Of a DNA stretch of 45,955 nucleotides, positions 10,274-45,955 are shown one piece after another. Within the stretch, counting starts at the first letter, position 1. Each line of letters starts with the position of its first letter. The position numbers were made by a program, and so were the translations under genes. Under the pieces are notes generated by a model. It worked only from the letters and a program-made list of their open reading frames with translations. It did no database searches and was not told where the DNA came from. The stretch comes from a virus: IMG/VR virus record IMGVR_UViG_3300037189_016108, positions 1-45,955 of that record. One strand, 5' to 3'.

Positions 10274-12280
10274 ATGAGAACTACAGACCCCAACGTACTT
10301 CTCCAGTCATTTTTCCGTTATTCACACGGTCAAATTTTAGCAACTAGCCCTATGGGTCAGGGTGTCTATTACGGTACAGTTATCGAGACTAACGCAACTA
10401 ACACTAGCCTTGCCGCTGGTTACATGCGCGTCAGCATTCCGTATCTCATTGCAGACGAAGTGTACGCAGAAATTCCATTTGCGGGAACAACTGCTCCCCC
10501 CAATGGGACTACCGCTGTTGTTGGGTTTTCCCCCGACGGCAATCTTATTTCGCTTGGTTTCATTGGATGGGAATCATCCGGCGGCGGCGGCGCGGGAACA
10601 CAGGGTCCACAGGGTTTTCAGGGCAACGCCGGGGCTAACGGCTCTCGGGGTTACCAGGGTTACCAGGGCACCGCTGGTGGACAGGGTGCCGGTGGAGCAC
10701 TCGGCTACTGGGGTTCTTTTTACGATACCACCACACAATCTTGCGCCACAACCAACACGGCGTACGGGGTGCTTTGTAACACTACTGCTGGCTCTAACGG
10801 AGTCAACGTTGACCCGGTTATAAAAAGTCGCCTTATTTTTGACCACTCTGGTGTTTATAACTTGCAATTTTCGTCGCAGTTTGAAAATCAGGGCGGTGGC
10901 GGTAGCGGAACAACAGTTCGGATTTGGCTTCGCGTAAATGGGACTAACATAGTAGAGTCCGCGGGTAGTGTTGACGTTAACAACAATAGCCCACTCGTAG
11001 TGAGTTCTTGGAACTATGTTCTGCAATTATACGCCAACGACTATGTAGAATTAATGTGGGCAACCACAAACACCCACATTGTCATGTTGCACAACACAAC
11101 TGCAACACCGGCACCAGGCACTCCATCGGTTATTTTTACCGCTACCCAGGTAATGTACACCCAAGAAGGTCCCCAGGGGTTTAGTGGTGCACAAGGCTAC
11201 CAGGGAAATCAGGGCTCGACCGGAATCTTTGAAGGTGCTACGCCCCCAGGCGATGTTACTCTTGTCTGGGCAGACACCTCGAGCCCCTACCAGGTTGGCC
11301 CGCAGGGTTATCAAGGTTATCAAGGCGCTGGCTACCAGGGTTCGCAAGGCTCGCAGGGTTACCAGGGTGTAACTGGCGTTTACGTCAATGCCACCGCTCC
11401 GTCTAACACGTCTCTTGTTTGGGCCGATACCTCAACTGCCTTTTCCGTGGGCCCGCAAGGTTACCAGGGCGCCACTGGTTCGCAGGGAAATCAAGGTTCC
11501 ACCGGTCCCCAGGGTTCGCAAGGAACGCAAGGTACAAATGGCTCGCAAGGCTCAACTGGAACCCAAGGTTTGCAGGGATATCAAGGCTATCAGGGTTATC
11601 AAGGCAAAACTGGCGTTTACGTTAACGCCACGGCGCCCACCGATACCTCTCTTGTGTGGGCTGACACTTCAACTGCTTTTTCCGTTGGTCCACAGGGTTA
11701 TCAAGGAAATCAGGGAAATCAAGGCGCTGGCTATCAGGGGGTTCAGGGTGCAACTGGCTCACAGGGTTATCAGGGAAACCAAGGTTTAACAGGTGCAGGT
11801 ACGCAGGGTAGCCAGGGCGCATCAGGCTCTCAGGGAAACCAGGGTGCTCAAGGTGCTGCTGGTTCCGCGCCAAATGCTTGGACCACTGGTCAATACACTA
11901 CTAACGTTACAATTTCCAGTACAAATGTTAACGCCGTTAACCCCGGCTCCCAAAACGTAACTGTTAGTGGGTTTACCACTTATTTTGTTATTTATAACTG
12001 TAACGAATCTGCTAACGCATCAACCACTGGTCGCGCTATTAACTTGTACTTTATTGCAACTGGAGGCTCAATTACTGGAGTTGGTAGCACTAGTAGTAAC
12101 GTCCTTATTTTGGGCAACACCAACAACGTTACGGGTGTTCGTGCAAACCACGCCGGTTCGACTATCATAACTACGTCAACAACTGGTTCTGTAACGTTTA
12201 CACCTTGGATGTACCTTGGTGGTACAACTGACACAGTTTCAATGGCTCTCTTTTCAATGCAAGTAATAGGAATCCGATAA
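10274..12280 (+). CDS. Baseplate spike OB-fold protein with collagen-like repeats
   Basis: 668 residues. Residues 1-100 look like a gp5/gpV OB-fold: 'YGTVIETN', 'GYMRVSIPYLI', 'EIPFAGTTAPPNGTTAVVGFSPDG', 'ISLGFIGW'. From about 108 to 140 a Gly-X-Y stretch starts (GPQGFQGNAG). Residues 145-295 form a globular C1q/TNF-like beta domain (FDHSGVYNLQFSSQFEN..., 'YVLQLYANDYVELMW'). From 297 to about 535 are collagen-like blocks, mostly G-Y-Q, G-S-Q and G-N-Q, broken by three copies of a roughly 30-residue cap module (about residues 317, 368 and 447). The last 130 residues are a second beta-rich domain. A spike OB-fold fused to collagen-like fibre is unusual. Weak Shine-Dalgarno at 10262. Confidence 0.7.
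   Translation: MRTTDPNVLLQSFFRYSHGQILATSPMGQGVYYGTVIETNATNTSLAAGYMRVSIPYLIADEVYAEIPFAGTTAPPNGTTAVVGFSPDGNLISLGFIGWESSGGGGAGTQGPQGFQGNAGANGSRGYQGYQGTAGGQGAGGALGYWGSFYDTTTQSCATTNTAYGVLCNTTAGSNGVNVDPVIKSRLIFDHSGVYNLQFSSQFENQGGGGSGTTVRIWLRVNGTNIVESAGSVDVNNNSPLVVSSWNYVLQLYANDYVELMWATTNTHIVMLHNTTATPAPGTPSVIFTATQVMYTQEGPQGFSGAQGYQGNQGSTGIFEGATPPGDVTLVWADTSSPYQVGPQGYQGYQGAGYQGSQGSQGYQGVTGVYVNATAPSNTSLVWADTSTAFSVGPQGYQGATGSQGNQGSTGPQGSQGTQGTNGSQGSTGTQGLQGYQGYQGYQGKTGVYVNATAPTDTSLVWADTSTAFSVGPQGYQGNQGNQGAGYQGVQGATGSQGYQGNQGLTGAGTQGSQGASGSQGNQGAQGAAGSAPNAWTTGQYTTNVTISSTNVNAVNPGSQNVTVSGFTTYFVIYNCNESANASTTGRAINLYFIATGGSITGVGSTSSNVLILGNTNNVTGVRANHAGSTIITTSTTGSVTFTPWMYLGGTTDTVSMALFSMQVIGIR
11222..11697 (+). 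repeat. Three-copy module inside the collagen-like fibre gene
   Basis: Starting at 11222, 11375 and 11612, a segment codes for G(I/V)(F/Y)..(A)T(A/P)P...(S/T)LVWADTS..(F/Y).VGPQG. The second and third copies are nearly identical in protein. They are separated by Gly-X-Gln collagen-like blocks of different length. The pattern fits duplication by recombination and would permit fibre length variation. Confidence 0.75.
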
Positions 12281-20788: not shown

Positions 20789-21178
20789 ATGTTAGCAAAT
20801 TTGCTTAACTCAGCAAACTTTTGGTTTACATTTATTTCGTCAATTTTTCTGGTATGCGGTGGTGTGTGGGGTCTTGTTAAGGGCTACCACCAATTTGTTG
20901 CTCACATTGTTGAACAACGCAGGCATGAACAAGAATTGACCAGTAATATTCATCAACTTCAAACGGAACAAACTCAACTCAGGACAGAACTGCATACCAT
21001 TAGCAAGGACATTACTCCCAACGGTAAAAATACTCAACGACTTGGCGACATTGTTGCTCGGTCTGAGGAAAAAATTGACAATTTGACGGACTTTATAACC
21101 CGCTATGCGGAAAAAGTTGACAGTCTTGAACAAAAATTAGCCAAGCATATTGGTTATCACGAAGGCGCAGACCTTTAA
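20789..21178 (+). CDS. Putative holin: one membrane segment plus coiled coil
   Basis: 129 residues. Residues about 8-32 form one hydrophobic segment ('FWFTFISSIFLVCGGVWGLV'), followed by a basic turn and a long charged coiled coil (residues 45-125). Small one-segment proteins with a coiled coil next to lysin genes are common in actinophages and are usually called holins. Here the call rests on position and topology. The start is 6 bp after the lysin stop with only a weak ribosome binding site, so translation may be coupled. Alternative: a membrane-bound lysis regulator or spanin-like helper. Confidence 0.52.
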   Translation: MLANLLNSANFWFTFISSIFLVCGGVWGLVKGYHQFVAHIVEQRRHEQELTSNIHQLQTEQTQLRTELHTISKDITPNGKNTQRLGDIVARSEEKIDNLTDFITRYAEKVDSLEQKLAKHIGYHEGADL

Positions 21179-26560: not shown

Positions 26561-27415
26561 TTACTGAAGTGACTTAAAGTGTTCGATGAGAATCTTGGCT
26601 TCATCCATCGACAGGTCGGTCAACTTGTCCGAGCGACGGTGGATAACTGCGTCAATCGCATCCCACATCTGGGGGTCGTCCATGCTGAGACCCTTGTGTG
26701 TGATTGCCCAAATAGCGCGGGTTTGCGCTTCTGATGCCATCTTGCCACCACCACCGACCGATACGGCCTGTGTTGGCTTGCCGGCAGCCGCACGCACGGT
26801 GTCACTAAGACTCTGTGGCGCCTGCTTGCGTACCGGCTCTTGGTAAGAACTGTAGGACTGCTCCTCGTGAGAAGCATCTGGGTCTTCGTCTCCCGTAGGA
26901 ATCCAGAAGAACTGCTTAAAGAAATACTTAGCCGCGGTAGCAAGAGCCTTGTTCATCGCCTTGTCTGCGGTGTCTGAAGCCTCTCCGACCATCGTAGAGA
27001 CAATAGTGTCACCGGCGGGACCGACAATGGTGTATTCCACCACTACGGTTGCAAAGTGAGCAATGGTTGCCTTGCCGGAAGAGTTCACACCCTCACGGTC
27101 GTAAGCACTCTGGCTAATGATGTTCGGGTAGATGGTAAGACCGTTCTTGATAAGAGCGGGCTGTACCTCTGCAGTAATGGCTTCGATGCCGAGAAACTTG
27201 TAACGCTGATTCTCGTTGTAGCCATTCTTGGCGATAAAACCAACGTCTTCCATAGCCCCACGCACCGCTTCGTAAACGGTAGGCAGTCCACTGTTGGATG
27301 CTGTCATGTTGTTTGTTCCTTCCTCATATTCGGTCATATCGACCTCTTCAAATGAAATGTTAGCCGCTTCCAAGAGTTGTGTCAAGTCTGGCGGGGTAAT
27401 TTTTGCGGCGGTCAT
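26561..27415 (-). CDS. erf: ERF-family single-strand annealing protein
   Basis: 284 residues. The core (about 45-180) has 'VYEAVRGAMEDVGFIAKN', 'YKFLGIEAITAEVQPALIKNG', 'STMVGEASDTADKAMNKALATAAKYFFKQFF' (parts) and 'IPTGDEDPD', matching the ERF annealing family. A Ser/Gln linker leads to a C-terminal helical region. It would anneal ssDNA produced by the YqaJ exonuclease encoded just upstream (TAATG overlap). With SSB downstream, the three genes form a Red-like module. The N-terminal 45 residues are an acidic extension. Confidence 0.82.
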   Translation of the reverse strand: MTAAKITPPDLTQLLEAANISFEEVDMTEYEEGTNNMTASNSGLPTVYEAVRGAMEDVGFIAKNGYNENQRYKFLGIEAITAEVQPALIKNGLTIYPNIISQSAYDREGVNSSGKATIAHFATVVVEYTIVGPAGDTIVSTMVGEASDTADKAMNKALATAAKYFFKQFFWIPTGDEDPDASHEEQSYSSYQEPVRKQAPQSLSDTVRAAAGKPTQAVSVGGGGKMASEAQTRAIWAITHKGLSMDDPQMWDAIDAVIHRRSDKLTDLSMDEAKILIEHFKSLQ

Positions 27416-28434
27416 TACTTCACTCCTCTAAGTGTGCGAGAACTGGGGCGGAACTTCTTGAACTGCTCAAAGATTTCGGGGGCCTCACGCCTCAAACGGT
27501 CGGTGTCCAAAGATTCTACCTCTTTACCAGCCTTGTAAGTCAGAATAACGTTCCCGTCCACAGTAGCGTACTCGGCGTTACCGACTACTTCAATAATCTT
27601 GGCACGAAGACCCTTGCGGACTTTATCGGCCTCTTCTGCGGCCACCTTGGCGGCACTGAATTCCTCCCAGAGCGACTTCAGTTCCATGCCACCCTCAAGG
27701 CCCTTGCCGGCTTCGTGGCGAGGGTAACGGGCTGCTTGCGCTGCTTCTGTGGCATCAGAACCGTCGACTTCGGGTGCAGTGTTGGTCTGAACAAGGTCCC
27801 AAAACTGTTGCTCAATGATAACTAGGTTTTCCGCGAGTTCTTCGTCCCAAGCAAGGTGACGAACCTGCAAACCCGTTGGCGGCAAAAGCGCCGCAAAGAT
27901 AATCTCGTGAACGCCTGTGACAATTCCGTAGTGAACGGTTTGCAAAACGTAACTTTGAGGGATGGAATTGTTCGACCACTGGTGCACGGTGCCGGGGCTG
28001 GCAATGCCCGAGGTCTTGACTTCAAGGATTGCCTTGACCCCCGCTGGCTCAATGTTGTTCTTCCAGTCGGTTACAACGCCGACAGGGAAATCCGGGGTGG
28101 GCTCGACAATCCAAAAGTCGATATTGGCGAACATAAAGTCATTCTTTTCTGATACAAGAATGACCGGCCATGCCACGACGGCCTGCTTGTGGTCGTGGGC
28201 GTACTTCTCTGCAATAACGCGCTCTAGTCGGTGGCCCCAATCGGTAGCCTCATTGCCTACGTTTTCACGTTCAATAAGGTTGGTACGTTCAGCCCACAAA
28301 GCGTAGGCAGACTTGTACTTGTTGACACCACAAACGGTACCGGCGTCAGAACCGCCGAGACCATTGGCGCGGTAGGCCAACCACTCTTCTTCGGGCATGT
28401 CCCACGTTGGGATGATTGCTTTGAACTTATTCAT
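27415..28434 (-). CDS. YqaJ-type exonuclease (lambda Exo fold)
   Basis: 339 residues. 'LAYRANGLGGSDAGTVCGVN' (19-38) is the typical N-terminal motif of the YqaJ family. The nuclease core has 'DWGHRLERVIAEKY' (Glu71), 'MFANIDFWIV' (Asp106) and 'AILEVKTSG' (Glu138, Lys140), the D...ExK metal site, and 'PQSYVLQTVHYGIVTG' (Gln165). It degrades one strand of dsDNA ends and feeds the ERF protein. The C-terminal 100 residues are helical. Start overlaps the winged-helix gene by 8 bp; Shine-Dalgarno AAGGAAAG. Confidence 0.86.
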   Translation of the reverse strand: MNKFKAIIPTWDMPEEEWLAYRANGLGGSDAGTVCGVNKYKSAYALWAERTNLIERENVGNEATDWGHRLERVIAEKYAHDHKQAVVAWPVILVSEKNDFMFANIDFWIVEPTPDFPVGVVTDWKNNIEPAGVKAILEVKTSGIASPGTVHQWSNNSIPQSYVLQTVHYGIVTGVHEIIFAALLPPTGLQVRHLAWDEELAENLVIIEQQFWDLVQTNTAPEVDGSDATEAAQAARYPRHEAGKGLEGGMELKSLWEEFSAAKVAAEEADKVRKGLRAKIIEVVGNAEYATVDGNVILTYKAGKEVESLDTDRLRREAPEIFEQFKKFRPSSRTLRGVK

Positions 28435-28657
28435 TGTTACTTTCCTTTATCTTAATAGTGCGAGCGACATTGTCCTCAAACTCGAGGGTCCCACTCTCTC
28501 GCAACTCCTGACACACATTATACACAGTTCCGAGCGATAGTCCAGTCAATTTTGCAAGGTCTCTAAAACTAGGACCATACTTGTGACTGGAGTACCAAGA
28601 AACAACCGCCTCCCTGACGGCAACCGTGTTAGAAACTCTAGTATTAAATGTCGTCAT
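28427..28657 (-). CDS. Winged helix-turn-helix protein, LexA-N-terminus-like
   Basis: 76 residues from ATG 28657, chosen because GAGG lies upstream and the fold begins after it; a further 9 codons are open upstream. '[20 protein letters not shown]' and '[19 protein letters not shown]' match the LexA DNA-binding domain pattern (helix, turn 'GPSFRDLA', recognition helix 'SLGTVYN'). There is no peptidase domain, so it cannot self-cleave. It lies between recA and the exonuclease and overlaps recA by 14 bp, so it may regulate this operon. Confidence 0.6.
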
Positions 28658-29678
28658 CTTCAACAACCTCTTCGACCTCAACAACTCCGATGGTTTCCAT
28701 CACGCGGTTATAAATTTCTTGATACAACGCTGGGTCTTCCTTTAGACGCTTTTTGGTTTTTTCTTTACCCTGACCAATGTTTTCGCCTTCATAGTTGAAG
28801 TACGCACCGGCACGGCGCAAAATCCCCAAGTCAGTAGCGCAATCAATAAGCACACCATACCTAGAAACGCCAACACCGTACTCAAGGTCAAACTCTGCCT
28901 GACGGAAAGGTGGTGCTACCTTGTTTTTGGCAACCTTGACGCGGGTGCGGTTAGCAGTTGATTCCTCGCCGGTTTTAATGGTCTGAATACGACGAATGTC
29001 AAGACGGACTGACGAGTAGTAAGGCAGGGCTTTGCCACCGGGGGTGTACTCGCTAGGCCCATACATCACACCAATCTTTTCACGCAATTGATTGATGAAA
29101 ATAACCAACGTGTTGTTAATGGACGCGGCGTGGGTCATCTTGCGAAGTGCCTGACCCATAATTCGAGGCATGAGCCCGACGTGATGGTCGCCCATCTCGC
29201 CTTCAATTTCGGCACGGGGGACCAATGCGGCTACGGAGTCAATGACAACAAGGGCCACCTCGCCGGACTCGATAACCCGAATGGCGGTCTCTAAACCCTG
29301 CTCCGCGTTGGCGGGCTGGGAGAGAATAAGAGACTGAACATCAATGCCAATAGCCTGTGCGTACACAGGGTCAAAAGTGTGTTCAGCGTCAATGTAGACA
29401 CAGGTCAAACCGAGCGATTGTGCAGATGCAATAGCGTGCTGAGCAACGGTTGACTTGCCCGACGAAGTGGGGCCGAAGAACTCGACAATACGGCCTCGGG
29501 GCAAGCCACCAACGCCCAAAGCCATGTCCAACGGCAAAATGCCGGTAGAAATAGTTTCTACGGGGACAATATCTGAGTTGTCAAGGCGCATGATTGCACC
29601 TGCACCAAACTGCTGATTGATGGAGTCAATGACGGATGCGAGGCTTCCACCGCGCGGGGCTGAGGTTTTCTTAGCCAT
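28644..29678 (-). CDS. recA: RecA recombinase
   Basis: 344 residues, full length for RecA. Walker A is 'GPTSSGKST' (69-77; bacterial consensus GPESSGKTT). '[14 protein letters not shown]', '[22 protein letters not shown]' (Walker B and L1), '[25 protein letters not shown]' (L2 region) and '[14 protein letters not shown]' are all in order. The C-terminal domain has an acidic tail. It is complete, so likely active in strand exchange, and it is encoded alongside a separate ERF/YqaJ annealing system. It has its own promoter and a good AAGAAAGGA ribosome site. Confidence 0.93.
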
Positions 29679-29766: not shown

Positions 29767-31818
29767 ATGCAACTTTCGTATAACTACGCGTGGCTTGTCG
29801 AAGATGAAATTTTTGTGCGTGCCCGTTTTCAACCAGGGTTTGTAGAGGACTGCCGAGACATTGAGGGTAGGCGCTGGGAGCCAAAAGACAAACTGAATGT
29901 CTTCCCTACCTCGCAGGCAGTTTCCGTTAAGGCGCTCGCAGACAAATGGAAGGTTATGCTTTCACCGGAAGTGTACGCGCTTCTATCCGTTTCGGAAGAC
30001 GAACTGTCAATGCCAGCCGGGGAATTCAACCTGGATGTAGAAGAAGGTGAAGTAGTAGTTCGCTTTCCCTACAATCCACGACTCATTAATACCATTAAAT
30101 CTATGGTCCCCGGTTGTAAATGGAATAACGAAAAAAAATTTTGGCAAATTCCACAGTCAAATTACGTTAATCTCCTAGAGTTTGCTACCGCAAACACCTT
30201 TACGTCATCTGAAGAATTTTTGATTCTTATGAATGACACAGTGAAACTCATTGATGAACAACGTACAGCGTCATCTGCGTTAGATGCAGACATAGTTATT
30301 CCGAACATGGTAGGCGAGTTGATGCCGTATCAGCGTGCTGGGGTTGCGTACTTAAAAAAGGCTAGGAAGGCAATCCTCGGCGACCAGCCCGGACTTGGAA
30401 AAACCGTCCAAGCACTCGCGACTATTGCGTCGGAGGACGCGTGGCCGGTGGTTATCGTGTGCCCGAACACCCTGAAGTATAACTGGATGCGGGAGACCGC
30501 CCGTTTCTTTCCCCATCTCAATGTGGTCATGTTGGACGGCACGAAGCCTACCGAGGGTGGCTGGAGTAAGAAGATGGATGTGATGATTGTCAATTACGAC
30601 ATCTTGCAGGAGCGTACCCCGGAATTTTATGCCAATGGGTTTAACTCGTTGATTGTCGATGAATCGCACGCCATCAAGAACGGTAAGCGTAGTCATATAT
30701 GCCCCGATTGCAAGTCGGTAGTCCGTTCTAACACTAAGAATTGCAAGATTTGCGGCACGGTTGGCATTACGCCCGTTGAAAAATGGAGCGTCAAGCGGAC
30801 TGGTGCGGTAATGAAGTTGGCGAAGAGCCTCCCCAAAAATAATTTTGTTCTTTTGCTCACGGGAACGCCTATCACCAATAGGCCAATGGAACTGGTGCCG
30901 CAGTTAGAAGCCATTGGAATGCTAGAGCATTTTGGCGGAGCGTGGCGGTTTCAGAACCGTTATGCACCCCAACGGAACGTGGCTACCAATACCAAAGAAC
31001 TCAACGAACGGATGCGGTCGCTGTGCTTTGTACGCCGGTTGAAGAAAGACATCTACGAGGAACTACCTGAACTGCGTAACGCCGTACAGTATCTCGAGGT
31101 GCCCAATGACCAAATGGAATGGTACAAGCAGGTTGAGCGGGATGTTGTCGAATACTTTGCTGAGAAGGCTATGTTGCTGGCGGCTGAAGCCGGTGAGGAT
31201 GAGGTAGAGGCCTACTGGCACAAAAAGATTACGCTGATGAACGCTGAGCACCTTGTACGCCTTACCGGGCTGCGGGACGCTGCGGCAAGGATTAAGCACA
31301 GCACTATCACCGATTGGATTGATAATTTTCTTGAATCTAGCGATGGTGAGAAGGTCATCGTCTACGCCGAACACATTGAGTTGGTAGAGAAGATTTACGC
31401 TCGCTACCGTGATGTGGCGGTCAAGATTCGTGGTGGTGTATCTACTGCTGACCGTGATGCCGCTGTCACCCGCTTTCAGACCGACCCCGAATGTCGTGTA
31501 TTCGTAGCCAACATGACCGCGGCCAGCGAAGGTCTTACCCTTACTGCCGCTAGTGACGTTGTCTTTTGTGAACTTGGATGGACCCCCGCACTGCACGAAC
31601 AGTGCGTATCCCGTGCCTACGGTCGAGTGAATGACATGCACGGCGCTACGGCGTGGTATCTTCTTGCCCCCGATACGATTGACGAGGACATATACTTGCT
31701 CTTACAGAAGAAGCAACTAATTGTAGAATCCGTCACCGACGGAGTTGACAATGTCAAAACTGCGAGTATAGTTAACGACCTAATCATCCGATTAGCGGAA
31801 AGAGGAATGAAGAAATAA
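29767..31818 (+). CDS. SNF2-family helicase with HARP-like N-terminal region
   Basis: 683 residues from ATG 29767, which follows AAGGAGG; an ATG 27 bp upstream lacks a ribosome site. Residues 98-130 ('VVVRFPYNPRLINTIKSMV', 'CKWNNEKKFWQIP') resemble the HARP element of SMARCAL1-like annealing helicases. SF2 motifs: 'LGDQPGLGKTVQ' (204-215), 'LIVDESH' (295-301), 'LLLTGTPITNRP', and C-terminal 'VIVYAEHIELVEKIY', 'VANMTAASEGLTLTAAS', 'QCVSRAYGRVND'. A zinc knuckle (Cys 312, 315, 326, 329) is inserted after DESH. Likely role: fork remodelling or replication restart. First gene of the replication operon. Confidence 0.84.
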   Translation: MQLSYNYAWLVEDEIFVRARFQPGFVEDCRDIEGRRWEPKDKLNVFPTSQAVSVKALADKWKVMLSPEVYALLSVSEDELSMPAGEFNLDVEEGEVVVRFPYNPRLINTIKSMVPGCKWNNEKKFWQIPQSNYVNLLEFATANTFTSSEEFLILMNDTVKLIDEQRTASSALDADIVIPNMVGELMPYQRAGVAYLKKARKAILGDQPGLGKTVQALATIASEDAWPVVIVCPNTLKYNWMRETARFFPHLNVVMLDGTKPTEGGWSKKMDVMIVNYDILQERTPEFYANGFNSLIVDESHAIKNGKRSHICPDCKSVVRSNTKNCKICGTVGITPVEKWSVKRTGAVMKLAKSLPKNNFVLLLTGTPITNRPMELVPQLEAIGMLEHFGGAWRFQNRYAPQRNVATNTKELNERMRSLCFVRRLKKDIYEELPELRNAVQYLEVPNDQMEWYKQVERDVVEYFAEKAMLLAAEAGEDEVEAYWHKKITLMNAEHLVRLTGLRDAAARIKHSTITDWIDNFLESSDGEKVIVYAEHIELVEKIYARYRDVAVKIRGGVSTADRDAAVTRFQTDPECRVFVANMTAASEGLTLTAASDVVFCELGWTPALHEQCVSRAYGRVNDMHGATAWYLLAPDTIDEDIYLLLQKKQLIVESVTDGVDNVKTASIVNDLIIRLAERGMKK

Positions 31819-32792
31819 TGACAGAGGTAACAACTTCAACGACCGATGGAAAGGAAGTCGTTGGACAAATCACAGTGGGGAACGATGTAATTATTGGCTC
31901 GCTTACGGCAGAACGCTCTGTTGTAATTCCGGGCTGGATTGTCACTCACCCAGATTTGTCTGACCGCGCCGTGAGGCTGTGGGGTTACATGAAGGGTGCG
32001 CTGAACGGTTCGTTCACTATCCCCGGAACCACACACAAGTCTTTGGCGCTCCTTCTTGACGTATCCGAGCGGACGGCTCGAGAGGCTATTTACGAACTCC
32101 GCGATGCTGGCGCACTTATCGCTGAACACGTTGTTGTGAACGGCCGCCAGATGGGAAATCGCTACTACTTGTGGCCCGCTAAGTCGGAGCACGTTGGGGT
32201 GGCAGCCAGTAGCCAGGGTGGCAGCCAGTTGCCAGCCGTATATAGTATTAATAATAATACTATTAATACTACTAATAATACTGCAGAAATTTCTGCTTCA
32301 TCGGAAACTTCATCTCGCAAGAACGCCAAGAACGATTACAGCGAAGACTTTGAATCACTCTGGCAGATTTATCCTCGACGCATTAACAAATCAAACTCGT
32401 ACAAGGCATTTTGCTCAACGCTTCGTCGTGGTGTATCGTTAGAAGAACTTACTCTTGCCACCCGCAACTACGCATCAGAGCGTATTGGGCAAGAAGAGCG
32501 TTATACTCTTCACGGCGCAACGTTCTTTGGTAAGGGCGAACGCTGGCGGGACTGGTTGCCCAAGGTCGAGGTACCATTCATCTTGGATGCCGAGACAGAG
32601 AAGGTCGCCCTCATCTGGGACCTCTACGACCTCACGGGTGTATGGCACCCAGGAGAGCGTGGACTTGACAATCCCGCAAAGCACGGCTACAGTCGTGTAC
32701 GGAATACAAAAGGCCAGTTGGTCGACGTGAGTGGAATTCCCTACGAGTTAGATGCTCAAGGGGCGCGTCGCCAAATTGGTTACTGGAACTAG
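31818..32792 (+). CDS. Replication initiator / primosomal protein, lambda O-like layout
   Basis: 324 residues. N-terminal domain (about 30-120) is a helix-turn-helix: 'LSDRAVRLWGYMKGALNGSF', 'KSLALLLDVSERTAREAIYELRDAG'. A low-complexity Asn/Thr/Ser linker (about 127-175) follows, then a C-terminal domain 'YSEDFESLWQIYPRRINKSNSYKAF' and 'TLATRNYASERIG...HGATFFGKGERWRDWL', a type common in phage replication proteins. The linker DNA holds repeats and an AT-rich palindromic tract (32198-32296), as in the lambda O gene, and a DnaB-like gene follows. Start overlaps upstream stop (TAATG). The protein is likely to bind the origin and recruit the helicase. Confidence 0.68.
   Translation: MTEVTTSTTDGKEVVGQITVGNDVIIGSLTAERSVVIPGWIVTHPDLSDRAVRLWGYMKGALNGSFTIPGTTHKSLALLLDVSERTAREAIYELRDAGALIAEHVVVNGRQMGNRYYLWPAKSEHVGVAASSQGGSQLPAVYSINNNTINTTNNTAEISASSETSSRKNAKNDYSEDFESLWQIYPRRINKSNSYKAFCSTLRRGVSLEELTLATRNYASERIGQEERYTLHGATFFGKGERWRDWLPKVEVPFILDAETEKVALIWDLYDLTGVWHPGERGLDNPAKHGYSRVRNTKGQLVDVSGIPYELDAQGARRQIGYWN
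32198..32296 (+). other. Candidate replication origin inside the replication gene
   Basis: Two directly adjacent 19-bp repeats, GGTGGCAGCCAGTAGCCAG (32198-32216) and the same with one A-to-T change (32217-32235), are followed by a 44-bp nearly pure A/T tract (32239-32282) and a perfect 14-bp palindrome GCAGAAATTTCTGC (32283-32296). The repeat length is not a multiple of 3, so the two copies code for different peptides; conservation is at DNA level. The A/T tract contains a further inverted repeat AGTATTAAT / ATTAATACT (32244-32252, 32262-32270). The layout of iterons plus AT-rich DNA inside the initiator gene is that of lambda ori. Confidence 0.6.
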
Positions 32793-32807: not shown

Positions 32808-34019
32808 ATGACAACTAACAAAATTCCCCATGACCAAGTCGCTGAGGATTCCCTCATTGGGGCGATGCTCCTCTCATACGAGACCGCAAGTCGTGTTATG
32901 GACATGTGTGAGGCTGATGCCTTTTACAATCCTCGCCACCGCCGGACGTTTGAAGCAATTGGCAATCTGGTTCAAGACGGAGTAATCCCAGACCCAATCG
33001 TGGTGTGCGCCGAGATGCATACGCCCGATTTGGTCAACATCCTTACTGATTTGATGGTAAACACCCCCGGAACCGCCAATGTCGAGGGTTGGGCAAAGAT
33101 TATTACTACCCACCACGCTTCTCGCAGGCTGATTGAGAGCCTTATACGCTCCGCAAACGTGGTTACCGACGGCGTGGACCCCTACGAGGAGGCGGGACGA
33201 GTAGAGAAGTTCATTTCTGGGCTTGGTACCGCCCAAACGTCAGAGCCAGAGGCTATGACCATCGATGAGTTGTCGATGAACGCTGAGAGTCTCGCCCCGA
33301 CCGTAATCCCGGGAATGATGAACCAAGACTACCGAACCATTGTTGTCGCCGAGGAAGGGGCCGGTAAGTCGCTTTTGCTTCGTACAATTGCTATGTCTGC
33401 CTCGCAGGGCATTCACCCCTTCTCACACCGGGCTATTAAGCCAATCCGCGCTTTGGTAATCGACCTTGAAAACCCAGCACAGGCTATTTTGCAAACGGCT
33501 GTTCCTTTTGCCAACTTTCTTGAGTCTCGGGCTGAAGACTACGACTCAGAGCGATTGAAGATTTTTCGTCGGCCCGGTGGTATTGAAATTCGCAAACTGG
33601 CTGACCGCTCTGAGATTCAACGCGAGATTGCCCACCACAAACCAGACCTTGTCTGCATTGGCCCCATCTACAAGATGTATCGACGCGGCTCTAGTGAATC
33701 CTACGAAGATTCTGCCGATGAAGCGATGGCTGTCCTTGATGACCTTCGCATCAAGTACGGTTTTGCCCTAATTATGGAGCATCACGCCGCAAAGGGTAAG
33801 TCTGGGGAGAAGCGAGACCTTACCCCTATGGGTTCACAGCGATGGATGGCATGGCCAGAAATTGGTATCTCGCTCTACAAAGACCAAGATGACCCCACAA
33901 TGATGCACGTTAAGCGTTACCGTGGAGACCGCTTGACTGGCGTTGACTGGCCTGATAGGATTCTCCGTGACAGGAATTGGCTTGTTGATGGGGCATGGGA
34001 CGGACCGGTGGGTGAATAA
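32808..34019 (+). CDS. DnaB-like / RepA-type replicative ATPase
   Basis: 403 residues. The N-terminal 120 residues ('VAEDSLIGAMLLSYETASRV', 'DAFYNPRHRRTFEAI') match the DnaB helical N-terminal domain. From about 165 the ATPase domain has Walker A 'VVAEEGAGKSLLLR' (181-188 core), 'RALVIDLENP' (213-222), 'PDLVCIGPIYKMYRR' and 'GFALIMEHHAAKG', more like the AAA_25/RepA branch than classic DnaB. The fused form suggests a phage replicative helicase. It follows the O-like gene by 15 bp, the O-P order. Start overlaps the next gene at its end (TAATG). Confidence 0.75.
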   Translation: MTTNKIPHDQVAEDSLIGAMLLSYETASRVMDMCEADAFYNPRHRRTFEAIGNLVQDGVIPDPIVVCAEMHTPDLVNILTDLMVNTPGTANVEGWAKIITTHHASRRLIESLIRSANVVTDGVDPYEEAGRVEKFISGLGTAQTSEPEAMTIDELSMNAESLAPTVIPGMMNQDYRTIVVAEEGAGKSLLLRTIAMSASQGIHPFSHRAIKPIRALVIDLENPAQAILQTAVPFANFLESRAEDYDSERLKIFRRPGGIEIRKLADRSEIQREIAHHKPDLVCIGPIYKMYRRGSSESYEDSADEAMAVLDDLRIKYGFALIMEHHAAKGKSGEKRDLTPMGSQRWMAWPEIGISLYKDQDDPTMMHVKRYRGDRLTGVDWPDRILRDRNWLVDGAWDGPVGE

Positions 34020-34528
34020 TGAGCGTAGTGGTTGCTTACAGAACTAAAAACGAGGCGTGGATGGCTTTTGACTCCGCGCTTTCTGGTGACGGTGTTATTT
34101 ACGAAACTACCACCCCCAAGGCTATCAAGCACGCTGGTGAGGGTTTAATTGGAGCGGCGGGAGATTGGAGCGTTATTAACGCCATTGAATCCCTCAAGGC
34201 TACAAAATGCACGCCCTACAACGTCCTTGGGGCCCTTAGAGAATTAAAGAAGGACAATGACGAACTGGATACCGAAATCCTTTTTGCCTACCCAAATAAG
34301 CCTCTTTCGCTTATTCAGGTTGATTTTTCGGTCATTGACCTAAAGTCACCGTTTATGGCCATCGGCGCCGGTGCGCCTTATGCCTTGGGGTACCTAGAAG
34401 CCTGCGAAGAAATTGGCAAGGCTGAACTAATCACCGCGGTGGAAGTAGCCGCTAAATACTCACAAAGTGTTATGAAGCCCGTAAAGGTTTTGCGGGTCAC
34501 CTTAAAGGAGGACAACAATGAATTGTGA
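34019..34528 (+). CDS. HslV / proteasome-beta-like Ntn peptidase with N-terminal Ser
   Basis: 169 residues. The fold pattern 'VVVAYRTKNEAWMAFDSALSG', 'KAIKHAGEGLIGAAGDW' and 'FMAIGAGAPYALGYLEA' fits the HslV/proteasome beta family. After Met removal the first residue is Ser (Thr in HslV), Asp is at 17 and Lys at 33, the same numbering as the T1/D17/K33 catalytic set of HslV. Ser can replace Thr as Ntn nucleophile, though usually with lower activity. No unfoldase (HslU) is in the window, so it may use a host ATPase, degrade unfolded peptides alone or be non-catalytic. Start overlaps the upstream stop by TAATG. Confidence 0.68.
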   Translation: MSVVVAYRTKNEAWMAFDSALSGDGVIYETTTPKAIKHAGEGLIGAAGDWSVINAIESLKATKCTPYNVLGALRELKKDNDELDTEILFAYPNKPLSLIQVDFSVIDLKSPFMAIGAGAPYALGYLEACEEIGKAELITAVEVAAKYSQSVMKPVKVLRVTLKEDNNEL

Positions 34529-36986: not shown

Positions 36987-37335
36987 CTTCGTGTCCGCAG
37001 TCGTATTGTGACGATGGTTCGTAACCTTCAAGAATGTCACGAGCCACATCGGTCATCATCTGACCAACAAAGGAACCAAGAGCGTACGCCCCCATCATTT
37101 TGCTGGGCGACGATTCTAAGATGTGGTTAACAAAATCAACTGAAATAGCAATTATAACGTCTCTGCTACCCTCGATGTTGATAACCTCGTATGGGTCATC
37201 TTCCTTGCTAATGGCAGATTGGTCAACCATCAAGGCAGAAATTTCTGCTCCGTTGCTGACAATGGCCTTACTGATGCAACGTTCTCCGCCGTCATCAAAA
37301 CCTGCCACAAATTCAAACTCTTCAAATTCTTCCAC
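36973..37335 (-). CDS. Hypothetical protein of the leftward cluster
   Basis: 120 residues from GTG 37335, which follows GAGGAG and the preceding stop by 2 bp; the longer reading with ATG at 37413 would overlap the upstream gene by 75 bp. Acidic N-terminus ('EEFEEFEFVAGFDDGGERC'), a beta/alpha middle ('VIIAISVDFVNHILESS') and a Cys/His end ('YDCGHEDEIN'). No motif recognised. It overlaps the HTH gene by 14 bp. Confidence 0.55.
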   Translation of the reverse strand: MEEFEEFEFVAGFDDGGERCISKAIVSNGAEISALMVDQSAISKEDDPYEVINIEGSRDVIIAISVDFVNHILESSPSKMMGAYALGSFVGQMMTDVARDILEGYEPSSQYDCGHEDEIN

Positions 37336-43908: not shown

Positions 43909-44853
43909 ATGCAACCTTTAGTTTTTTTACACATTCTGGCAAAGGACAAAGAGCCTGTTTTGCCGTTGTATCTAGAGACCCTTGACAACTGGGACTACCC
44001 CAAAGACCGGATTATTATTTACCTCAGAACAAATAATAATTCAGACGCAACGGCAGACATACTTGCGGAGTGGGTTGAGGCTAAGGGTGGCGAATACAAA
44101 TCTTTACTCTTCGACTCAATGGATGTTGCCGAACCCATTACCGACACCGGCTCCCACGACTGGACTCAAGACCGCCTTGAGGTAATCAGAAGGCTAAGGG
44201 ATGAAGGGCTAAGTGTTGCACGCCGTTACAATGCTGACTTCTACTTCACCTCGGATGTTGATAACTTTATCGCTCCCGACACCCTTAGTTCCCTCGTTGG
44301 CCTAGACCTACCCGTTGTTGCTCCTTTACTGCGATACGCCTACGACCCAAACGAGAACGCAAAAAACCAATGGGCAAACCCGTGGTACTCCAACTTTGCT
44401 AACAAAGTGAACGACTACGGCGATGTTATGGACCACCCTGACTACTACCCGCTTCTAGAGCGCTCCTCCCCTGGCATCCACGAAGTCGAACTTGTCCACG
44501 CAACTTATTTGATTCGTCGAGATGTTCTTAGTGTTATTTCGTATCAAAATGGAACTATGGGCTGGGATTACATTATTTTTGCTAGTAATCTGCGTAGGGC
44601 TGGCATTCCGCAACTTCTTGACAATCGAAAAGTTTATGGCTGTATGACCCTCGCTGAAAACGAACCAGCCTGTCGTTTGATGATGCAAGAACTCGGATTT
44701 CTGAAAGAGAAACAAGAAAGTCCGTCGCAAACTTTTACAAAAACCAAGCGTCGCCTTTGTCTGCGTATGTGGGGATACTTCTCCTTGCTTATGGGTATGG
44801 TTATTTGGTCCCTTTTCTGGTGGGGACTATTTATCTGGGCCATTGCGCGCTGA
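43909..44853 (+). CDS. Glycosyltransferase resembling collagen galactosyltransferase (GT25/PLOD-like)
   Basis: 314 residues. Order of features matches the GT domain of animal collagen galactosyltransferases and the lysyl-hydroxylase GT domain as I recall them: 'LPLYLETLDNWDYPKDRIII' (18-37), 'DWTQDRLEVIRRLRDEGLSV' (84-103), 'ADFYFTSDVDNFIAPDTL' (109-126, DxD at 116-118), 'PVVAPLLRY', 'ELVHATYLIRRD' and 'WDYIIFASNLRRAG'. The C-terminus (about 283-314) has a basic stretch and then a membrane segment 'LLMGMVIWSLFWWGLFIWAI', which is unlike the animal enzymes. The phage also encodes collagen-like proteins, so they are possible substrates. Shine-Dalgarno AAGGA. Confidence 0.7.
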   Translation: MQPLVFLHILAKDKEPVLPLYLETLDNWDYPKDRIIIYLRTNNNSDATADILAEWVEAKGGEYKSLLFDSMDVAEPITDTGSHDWTQDRLEVIRRLRDEGLSVARRYNADFYFTSDVDNFIAPDTLSSLVGLDLPVVAPLLRYAYDPNENAKNQWANPWYSNFANKVNDYGDVMDHPDYYPLLERSSPGIHEVELVHATYLIRRDVLSVISYQNGTMGWDYIIFASNLRRAGIPQLLDNRKVYGCMTLAENEPACRLMMQELGFLKEKQESPSQTFTKTKRRLCLRMWGYFSLLMGMVIWSLFWWGLFIWAIAR

Positions 44854-44972
44854 TACATTTTCTCATCAGAAAAACTTCACGAATACCGCAGCAGGTTGAG
44901 TCAGGCGCACCCATGCACGATAGACCGACCGTCTGGGGTTAGAAAATAGTTCTAAAACAATCGGCTTGCGCG
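44854..44972. other. Short intergenic region between convergent genes
   Basis: A weak AT-rich hairpin TTAGAA/TTCTAA (44939-44955) without a T tract is the only structure seen. A frame that overlaps the glycosyltransferase runs to 44942 but has no ribosome site. No clear terminator for either gene. Confidence 0.4.
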
Positions 44973-45164
44973 CTAGTCACGCTCATTACGGATTTCTAGC
45001 ACCGCATTGTAGACGATACCGCGTACTTCTTCCTCTACGGCATCCCAATCTAACTCTCGGCAAGCCTTCTCGATTTCAGACTCGGTGATTTCTTCGATGT
45101 TGTCGTACTCGGCAAATACTTGTAGGTCTTTTGCCCCGACAATGAACTTAATGGCCATCGGCAC
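44973..45164 (-). CDS. Hypothetical small acidic protein
   Basis: 63 residues from GTG 45164; AAGGAG lies 7 nt upstream, within the stop of the previous gene. ATG at 45158 is an alternative but is less well spaced. Helical and acidic ('EITESEIEKACRELDWDAVE'), with a beta start 'IKFIVGAKDLQVFAEY'. Unknown family. Confidence 0.6.
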   Translation of the reverse strand: MPMAIKFIVGAKDLQVFAEYDNIEEITESEIEKACRELDWDAVEEEVRGIVYNAVLEIRNERD

Positions 45165-45168
45165 GATT

Positions 45169-45366
45169 TTACTCCTTGTTTAAGTTTTGTAGTGCTGTCA
45201 AAAGGGTGCTGTAAATCTCGGCATCTACTTCTGCGATTGACATCATCGCCTCATGTCCGTACTTTTCGTAAGTCTCGGCGTCATAGACCCCCTCAGATGG
45301 GTCGCTGTCGGCATACCAATGACCGGTCTCTGAGTTGTAAATAACCGCGAACTGATGGAGTGGCAT
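45169..45366 (-). CDS. Hypothetical small protein
   Basis: 65 residues from ATG 45366, which overlaps the previous stop by TAATG; the longer reading to 45513 would overlap the upstream gene by 145 bp. 'FAVIYNSETGHWYADSDPSE' is followed by acidic helices. No motif. Its stop codon region forms the ribosome site of the next gene. Confidence 0.58.
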   Translation of the reverse strand: MPLHQFAVIYNSETGHWYADSDPSEGVYDAETYEKYGHEAMMSIAEVDAEIYSTLLTALQNLNKE

Positions 45367-45710
45367 TAGAACGCCTCGTCGCATTTGTCGCAGATACCGG
45401 CTAGAAAGTCCTCGCCATCCATCCGCGTAATGGGGTGGTAGTTGTCCGGCACTACTTCGCCCATACAACCGGCGCAAAGCATTGTCGGTACTTTCCCACA
45501 ACCGTAGGTACAATAACCATCATCCTGACAATCATAACTAAAGTATCCTACCACCTCGCCGTTTAGCCACTCGTTTATTACATCGTAGGCCGTTTCGGGG
45601 TCATCCATCAGCAGATTAGAAAGTTCTTCAGGGAGTTTCGTGAAATCGAACATAAGCAGTCCGTTCGCGTCACCCCAACTACCATCGCTGGCTAGAAAAG
45701 TTTTCGACAT
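45366..45710 (-). CDS. Hypothetical zinc-binding-like protein
   Basis: 114 residues. The C-terminal half has Cys pairs 'CTYGCGK', 'CAGCMGE' and 'CDKCDEAF' and may bind one or two zinc ions. The N-terminal half is acidic and helical ('LPEELSNLLMDDPETAYDVI'). AAGGAG before ATG 45710. Unknown function. Confidence 0.6.
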   Translation of the reverse strand: MSKTFLASDGSWGDANGLLMFDFTKLPEELSNLLMDDPETAYDVINEWLNGEVVGYFSYDCQDDGYCTYGCGKVPTMLCAGCMGEVVPDNYHPITRMDGEDFLAGICDKCDEAF

Positions 45711-45712
45711 TG

Positions 45713-45919
45713 TTATTCTCCTTGTTCTTTCTTACCGGTCACATGGTAGCCCTTTTCGATGACAAACACATCGTCATACCAACCGTCAATCCAATCGGGG
45801 CTGTTTTCGTCAGGTTCGGGCATGGTCTCGTAAAGAAACGCCCAACCTTCCTCAAAACTGTCAAACTCCTTAGCATCGAACATAATGTTGTCTGCCCAAT
45901 CTCTAATCAGATACTTCAT
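45713..45919 (-). CDS. Hypothetical small acidic aromatic protein
   Basis: 68 residues, Asp/Trp/Tyr-rich ('FDSFEEGWAFLYETMPEPDE', 'WIDGWYDDVFVIEKGYHV'). A type seen as a small unknown in many phages. The ATG 45919 has only a weak upstream site; its promoter would lie beyond the window end. It ends 2 bp before the next gene. Confidence 0.55.
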   Translation of the reverse strand: MKYLIRDWADNIMFDAKEFDSFEEGWAFLYETMPEPDENSPDWIDGWYDDVFVIEKGYHVTGKKEQGE

Positions 45920-45955
45920 TATTCACTCGCTTTCGTTAAATCGGTGTTTAGGTTA

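Follow-up and report, generated by a model that had tools for sequence, protein, structure and literature searches.

The window, by which we mean the whole 45,955-nucleotide stretch of viral DNA analysed, includes a module of iterons, an A/T tract and a short distal motif that we consider, with high confidence, to be a putative theta-type replication origin embedded in the gene of its own initiator. This reading is supported because the module recurs in non-coding DNA with its elements in the same order, and because the repetition within the gene exceeds that of synonymous shuffles and the repeat offsets in homologous genes are mostly not multiples of three. From lambda (PMC7466680), SPP1 and the RepA_N plasmids we infer how binding, melting, helicase loading and the start of replication would proceed. 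The initiator (324 aa) would bind two 16-bp dyads (32200-32215 and 32219-32234) through its N-terminal winged-helix domain, probably as dimers; this binding would melt the adjacent A/T tract, and the DnaD-like C-terminal domain would then recruit the DnaB-type helicase that the phage encodes in the following gene. The features of the region are the following.

31818-32792, + strand: replication initiator gene, 324 aa (phrog_270, E 2.6e-23; homologues in IMG/VR)
31905-32183, + strand: N-terminal winged-helix domain (aa 30-122), presumed iteron binder (AlphaFold model; weak fold matches to RepA and DnaD N-domains; iteron covariation)
32193-32330, + strand: linker (aa 126-171), predicted to be disordered (AlphaFold pLDDT <50 at 126-171), containing the putative origin module
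32197-32215, + strand: iteron 1 (dyad 32200-32215 with one mismatch; from the sequence)
32216-32234, + strand: iteron 2 (dyad 32219-32234, TGGCA-N6-TGCCA; from the sequence)
32239-32282, no strand: A/T-rich tract, presumed unwinding element (88.6% A/T, the window maximum)
32283-32296, no strand: perfect 14-bp palindrome GCAGAAATTTCTGC (from the sequence)
32291-32297, + strand: TTCTGCT motif, conserved at 41-56 bp from the iteron in the in-gene and non-coding modules
32331-32585, + strand: start of the conserved C-terminal domain (aa 172-256), DnaD-like/primosomal, presumed helicase recruiter (phrog_9327, phrog_1701 and others; alignment A1)
32808-34019, + strand: DnaB-type helicase gene, with a DnaB N domain and a RecA-like ATPase (PF00772, E 7.4e-18; PF13481, E 2.4e-18)

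The initiator gene and the elements of the module

The initiator matches the PHROG profile of a replication initiation protein over residues 32-247. The first-pass annotation, made from the sequence alone, had read an N-terminal HTH and a low-complexity linker in it, and the AlphaFold model agrees, with a predicted winged helix at residues 30-122 and low confidence at 126-171. The matches of the N-terminal domain to the folds of RepA and DnaD N-domains are weak: the first-ranked Foldseek match, the Rep-DNA complex 5kbj, has an E value of 6.8e-3, and all Z scores are below 8 (VIA Z 6.1-6.8 for 4pql, 4pt7 and 5kbj). Since the 50 VIA matches include many unrelated winged helices, we do not claim a family from the fold. 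The DnaB-like gene that had been noticed after the initiator gene is indeed a DnaB-type helicase gene and follows it directly; its proposed equivalence to lambda P fails, as P is a loader and not a DnaB-type protein. The gene after the helicase (34019-34528) matches a PHROG named peptidase HslV family. Elsewhere in the window, profile matches identify tail sheath and tape-measure genes, and the minus strand at 26561-29678 carries the recombination genes ERF, YqaJ exonuclease and a full-length RecA that includes its C-terminal domain.

The two abutting 19-bp repeats, 18/19 identical, are present as first described except that they start at 32197 rather than 32198. They are read in different frames, their dyads beginning at codon phases 1 and 2 and encoding the peptides VAASSQ and GSQLPA. 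The claim that each repeat is itself a dyad stands in full for the second copy, which is the only perfect TGGCA-N6-TGCCA in the window, and with one mismatch for the first. The window gene therefore includes two iterons only, one of them imperfect, which counts against the origin reading. When the amino acids were kept fixed and synonymous codons were shuffled (n=5000), the self-repeat score of the gene, 17.5, was never reached (shuffled mean 7.3, maximum 11.5; p 0.0002). Lambda O, used as a positive control, scored 13.5 (p 0.003). Two of the 44 other ORFs of the window were found at p 0.003, namely the tape-measure gene, with an in-frame Gly repeat, and another one with a weak score of 10. 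An ORF met in this control scan (10274-12280) has an in-frame collagen-like CAAGGC repeat, rich in Gln-Gly.

The adjoining tract is the most A/T-rich 44-bp segment of the window, the next best place reaching 79.5%, and includes the inverted repeat (32243-32256/32258-32271) that had been reported inside it. A hairpin formed by this tract was considered as a conserved element and rejected, its z being -5.0 in the window versus -2.2 to +1 in relatives. The perfect palindrome that follows is present as claimed; alone it is unremarkable, because the window has five perfect palindromes of at least 14 bp, and it was also discarded as a conserved element since relatives keep it only as the one-sided TTCTGCT. 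The same palindrome is found again at 37235-37248, within a minus-strand ORF and with no adjoining iteron or A/T tract. The distance from iteron to TTCTGCT is 41 to 56 bp across ten modules. TTCTGCT, located beyond the tract, is thus a conserved third element, which one might guess to serve as a primase start or a strand-specific contact. A structured RNA was considered as well and rejected, with no Rfam match.

Repeats and N-terminal domains in homologous phages

Separate IMG/VR scans for the initiator and for the helicase yielded loci L001-L162, which include 57 non-redundant initiator genes. In most close homologues the linker that joins the winged helix to the C-terminal domain has tandem repeats, which differ in sequence (CTATCACCAGTGATAG, TCCTCACCAGTGAGGA and GGTGCAGTGGTTGCACC are examples). 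A repeat at an offset of 19-24 bp (p <= 0.015) was detected in 29 of the 57 genes; 22 of these 29 have an offset that three does not divide, so those 22 are not peptide repeats. Dyads of 16 bp, consisting of two 7-bp arms and a 2-bp centre, number 40 in 33 linkers (shuffled mean 10, maximum 20) and occur in all three reading frames. The TGGCA-N6-TGCCA type is common to the window, L002 and L021; the frames of the dyads are swapped between the window and L002, and L021 uses the third frame. The comparison of homologues that the first-pass annotation had proposed as a test thus came out in its favour: the dyad repeats persist as DNA, whereas their frame and peptide vary. By the shuffle test, a clear tandem repeat is missing from some homologues, distant and cultured ones among them. 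In the cultured relatives (Gordonia, Arthrobacter, Brevibacterium, Moorella and Bacillus phages), some linkers look dyad-like by eye and the tandem score is weak or absent. Five loci with another N-terminal type (L134, L122, L054, L129 and L126) have a second tandem repeat of 14-15 bp, of the GAAGGAACATTAATA type, located in the A/T part of the linker directly after the iterons.

Taken at the level of sequence comparison, these results show a module whose conservation is at the level of DNA and not of the encoded peptide. An explanation at the protein level, in which the repeats of a low-complexity linker are accidental or driven by the peptide and have no function as DNA, would agree with the predicted disorder of the segment, as disordered linkers tolerate repeats; nevertheless, the reading frame varies from copy to copy and from phage to phage, shuffles fail to reproduce the repeats, and the occurrence of the module in non-coding DNA contradicts it, so that we regard this explanation as extremely improbable.

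Covariation was analysed in 32 homologues (alignment A3). Iteron similarity correlates with the identity of the N-terminal domain when that of the C-terminal domain is controlled (partial r 0.40, Mantel p 0.0005); in the same homologues no correlation was found with C-terminal identity when N-terminal identity is controlled (r -0.01, p 0.59). Since the linker sits between both domains, closeness alone does not explain the N-terminal correlation. Co-inheritance of adjacent segments could add to it, although the C-terminal domain is equally close. The pattern fits a role of the N-terminal domain as the probable iteron binder.

A second module in non-coding DNA

An 18-base iteron pattern matched nine stretches in 2.9 million viral contigs. 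Beyond initiator genes, the matches include non-coding sites at which an A/T tract and then TTCTGCT come after the iterons, in the same order as in the gene. One of the contigs, G001 (78,430 bp), is nearly identical to the window (99.97% over 44,956 bp), and the end of the window (44834-45955) matches the start of this contig. The window joins the two ends of the contig, with 123 bp of overlap, so this genome, apparently complete, seems to be circular or circularly permuted at about 78.3 kb. No relatives were found in the bacterial genome contigs scanned.

In G001, the initiator gene and positions 21,039-21,115 are the sole sites of iterons that are exact or have one mismatch, and the A/T tracts of these two modules rank first and second among its 44-bp windows by A/T content. 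The second module lies 34-45 kb from the in-gene one, roughly opposite on the apparently circular 78-kb genome, upstream of a 67-aa gene that heads an operon with a terminase-like gene (terminase read from the sequence). A promoter-like TTGAC(A)-N17-TACACT, read by eye, adjoins this module (L168 1-400 / G001 20960-21130, outside the window). The homologous site also carries a module in G005, G006/G007 and G010, and that of G010 resembles the in-gene iterons of G010 itself and not those of G001. A second copy was not seen at this site in G013, G016 and G019, which have other N-terminal types. The cumulative GC skew of G001 reaches its minimum at 62.4 kb, about 3 kb from the in-gene module (near 65.7 kb of the contig), a position confounded by gene orientation.

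The intergenic location of the second copies beside a promoter-like sequence, together with dyads that would suit a repressor, could also be accounted for if the module were an operator and the initiator regulated its own operon and the divergent genes beside the second copy. An operator, however, needs neither the A/T tract nor the distal TTCTGCT, both of which are kept in both places, and the copy in the gene is found some 380 bp into the coding sequence; we consider this alternative improbable. A different proposal concerns the second copy and is compatible with an origin within the gene: the second copy could be a fork barrier or late origin that mainly stalls forks and triggers the change to the synthesis of concatemers, a role suggested for SPP1 oriR (PMC3485210, PMC6316719). 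The distance between the copies on an apparently circular 78-kb genome and the presence of ERF, YqaJ and RecA genes in the window agree with it, while the second copy retains an A/T tract and TTCTGCT that a pure barrier would not need. We hold this proposal to be plausible, at somewhat less than even chances. Returning to the origin reading, a joint interpretation that we put forward tentatively is that these phages may have two co-evolving origins, one in the gene and one at the roughly opposite, conserved non-coding site upstream of the terminase operon, that the N-domain and its cognate origin may be exchanged as a cassette, and that iteron sequences may change fast, with the geometry of the dyads, and a core near ACC(A/G)GT, preserved.

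Relation to known origins

The first-pass annotation had called the origin lambda-like. The architecture bears this out: as in lambda ori, imperfect inverted-repeat iterons of about 19 bp are found in the middle of the initiator gene and are followed by an A/T tract, and both genes pass the shuffle test. The likeness does not extend to the proteins, as the initiator has no detectable homology to lambda O (hhalign of the A3 alignment, probability 0.2%) and the next gene encodes a DnaB-type helicase rather than the P loader. In addition, there are two iterons here and four in lambda, and the present genome has a second copy elsewhere. In lambda, the minimal unit for unwinding consists of two iterons and the A/T region (PMC7466680).

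The SPP1 origins oriL and oriR and the origins of RepA_N plasmids are closer analogues than lambda ori. SPP1 oriL lies inside gene 38 and oriR is non-coding, in the late region, 12-13 kb apart; both consist of direct repeats and an A/T-rich unwinding element, and the DnaB-family helicase is phage-encoded (PMC6316719, PMC3485210). The window phage type shares with SPP1 the putative in-gene origin, the second non-coding module (in G001), the repeats with an A/T tract and a DnaB-family helicase of its own; it differs in the larger distance between the copies and in that no separate loader gene was identified. In RepA_N plasmids such as pSK41, the origin is central in rep, the linker is dispensable, the N-domain is a winged helix and the C-domain is structurally related to DnaD (PMC5703833); in the chimeric pPR9, the N-domain and origin were replaced together by those of a PF13730 type (PMC5703833). 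A central putative origin, a linker, a predicted winged-helix N-domain and a DnaD-like C-domain are found here as well, and 13 of the 32 homologues match PF13730. Unlike these plasmids, the phage has its own helicase gene, and its initiator showed no match to RepA_N in Pfam scans and none to PF13730. Phage P1 oriL, in repL, also has an A/T-rich region inside the initiator gene, and synonymous substitution demonstrated that this region is needed at the DNA level (PMC9948254).

In-gene origins with iterons and an A/T tract, paired origins (SPP1) and joint replacement of N-domain and origin (pPR9) were thus already known, and the added interest lies in the second copy and in the many pairs of domain and iteron. 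What began as a guess from the letters alone is now a well-defined, testable putative origin in uncultured phages. Since several of the contigs have a second module at the same homologous site, one may ask whether SPP1-style paired origins are common in phages, and the approximately 30 natural pairs of an initiator DNA-binding domain and its iteron, with a shared geometry, are a source for learning recognition rules.
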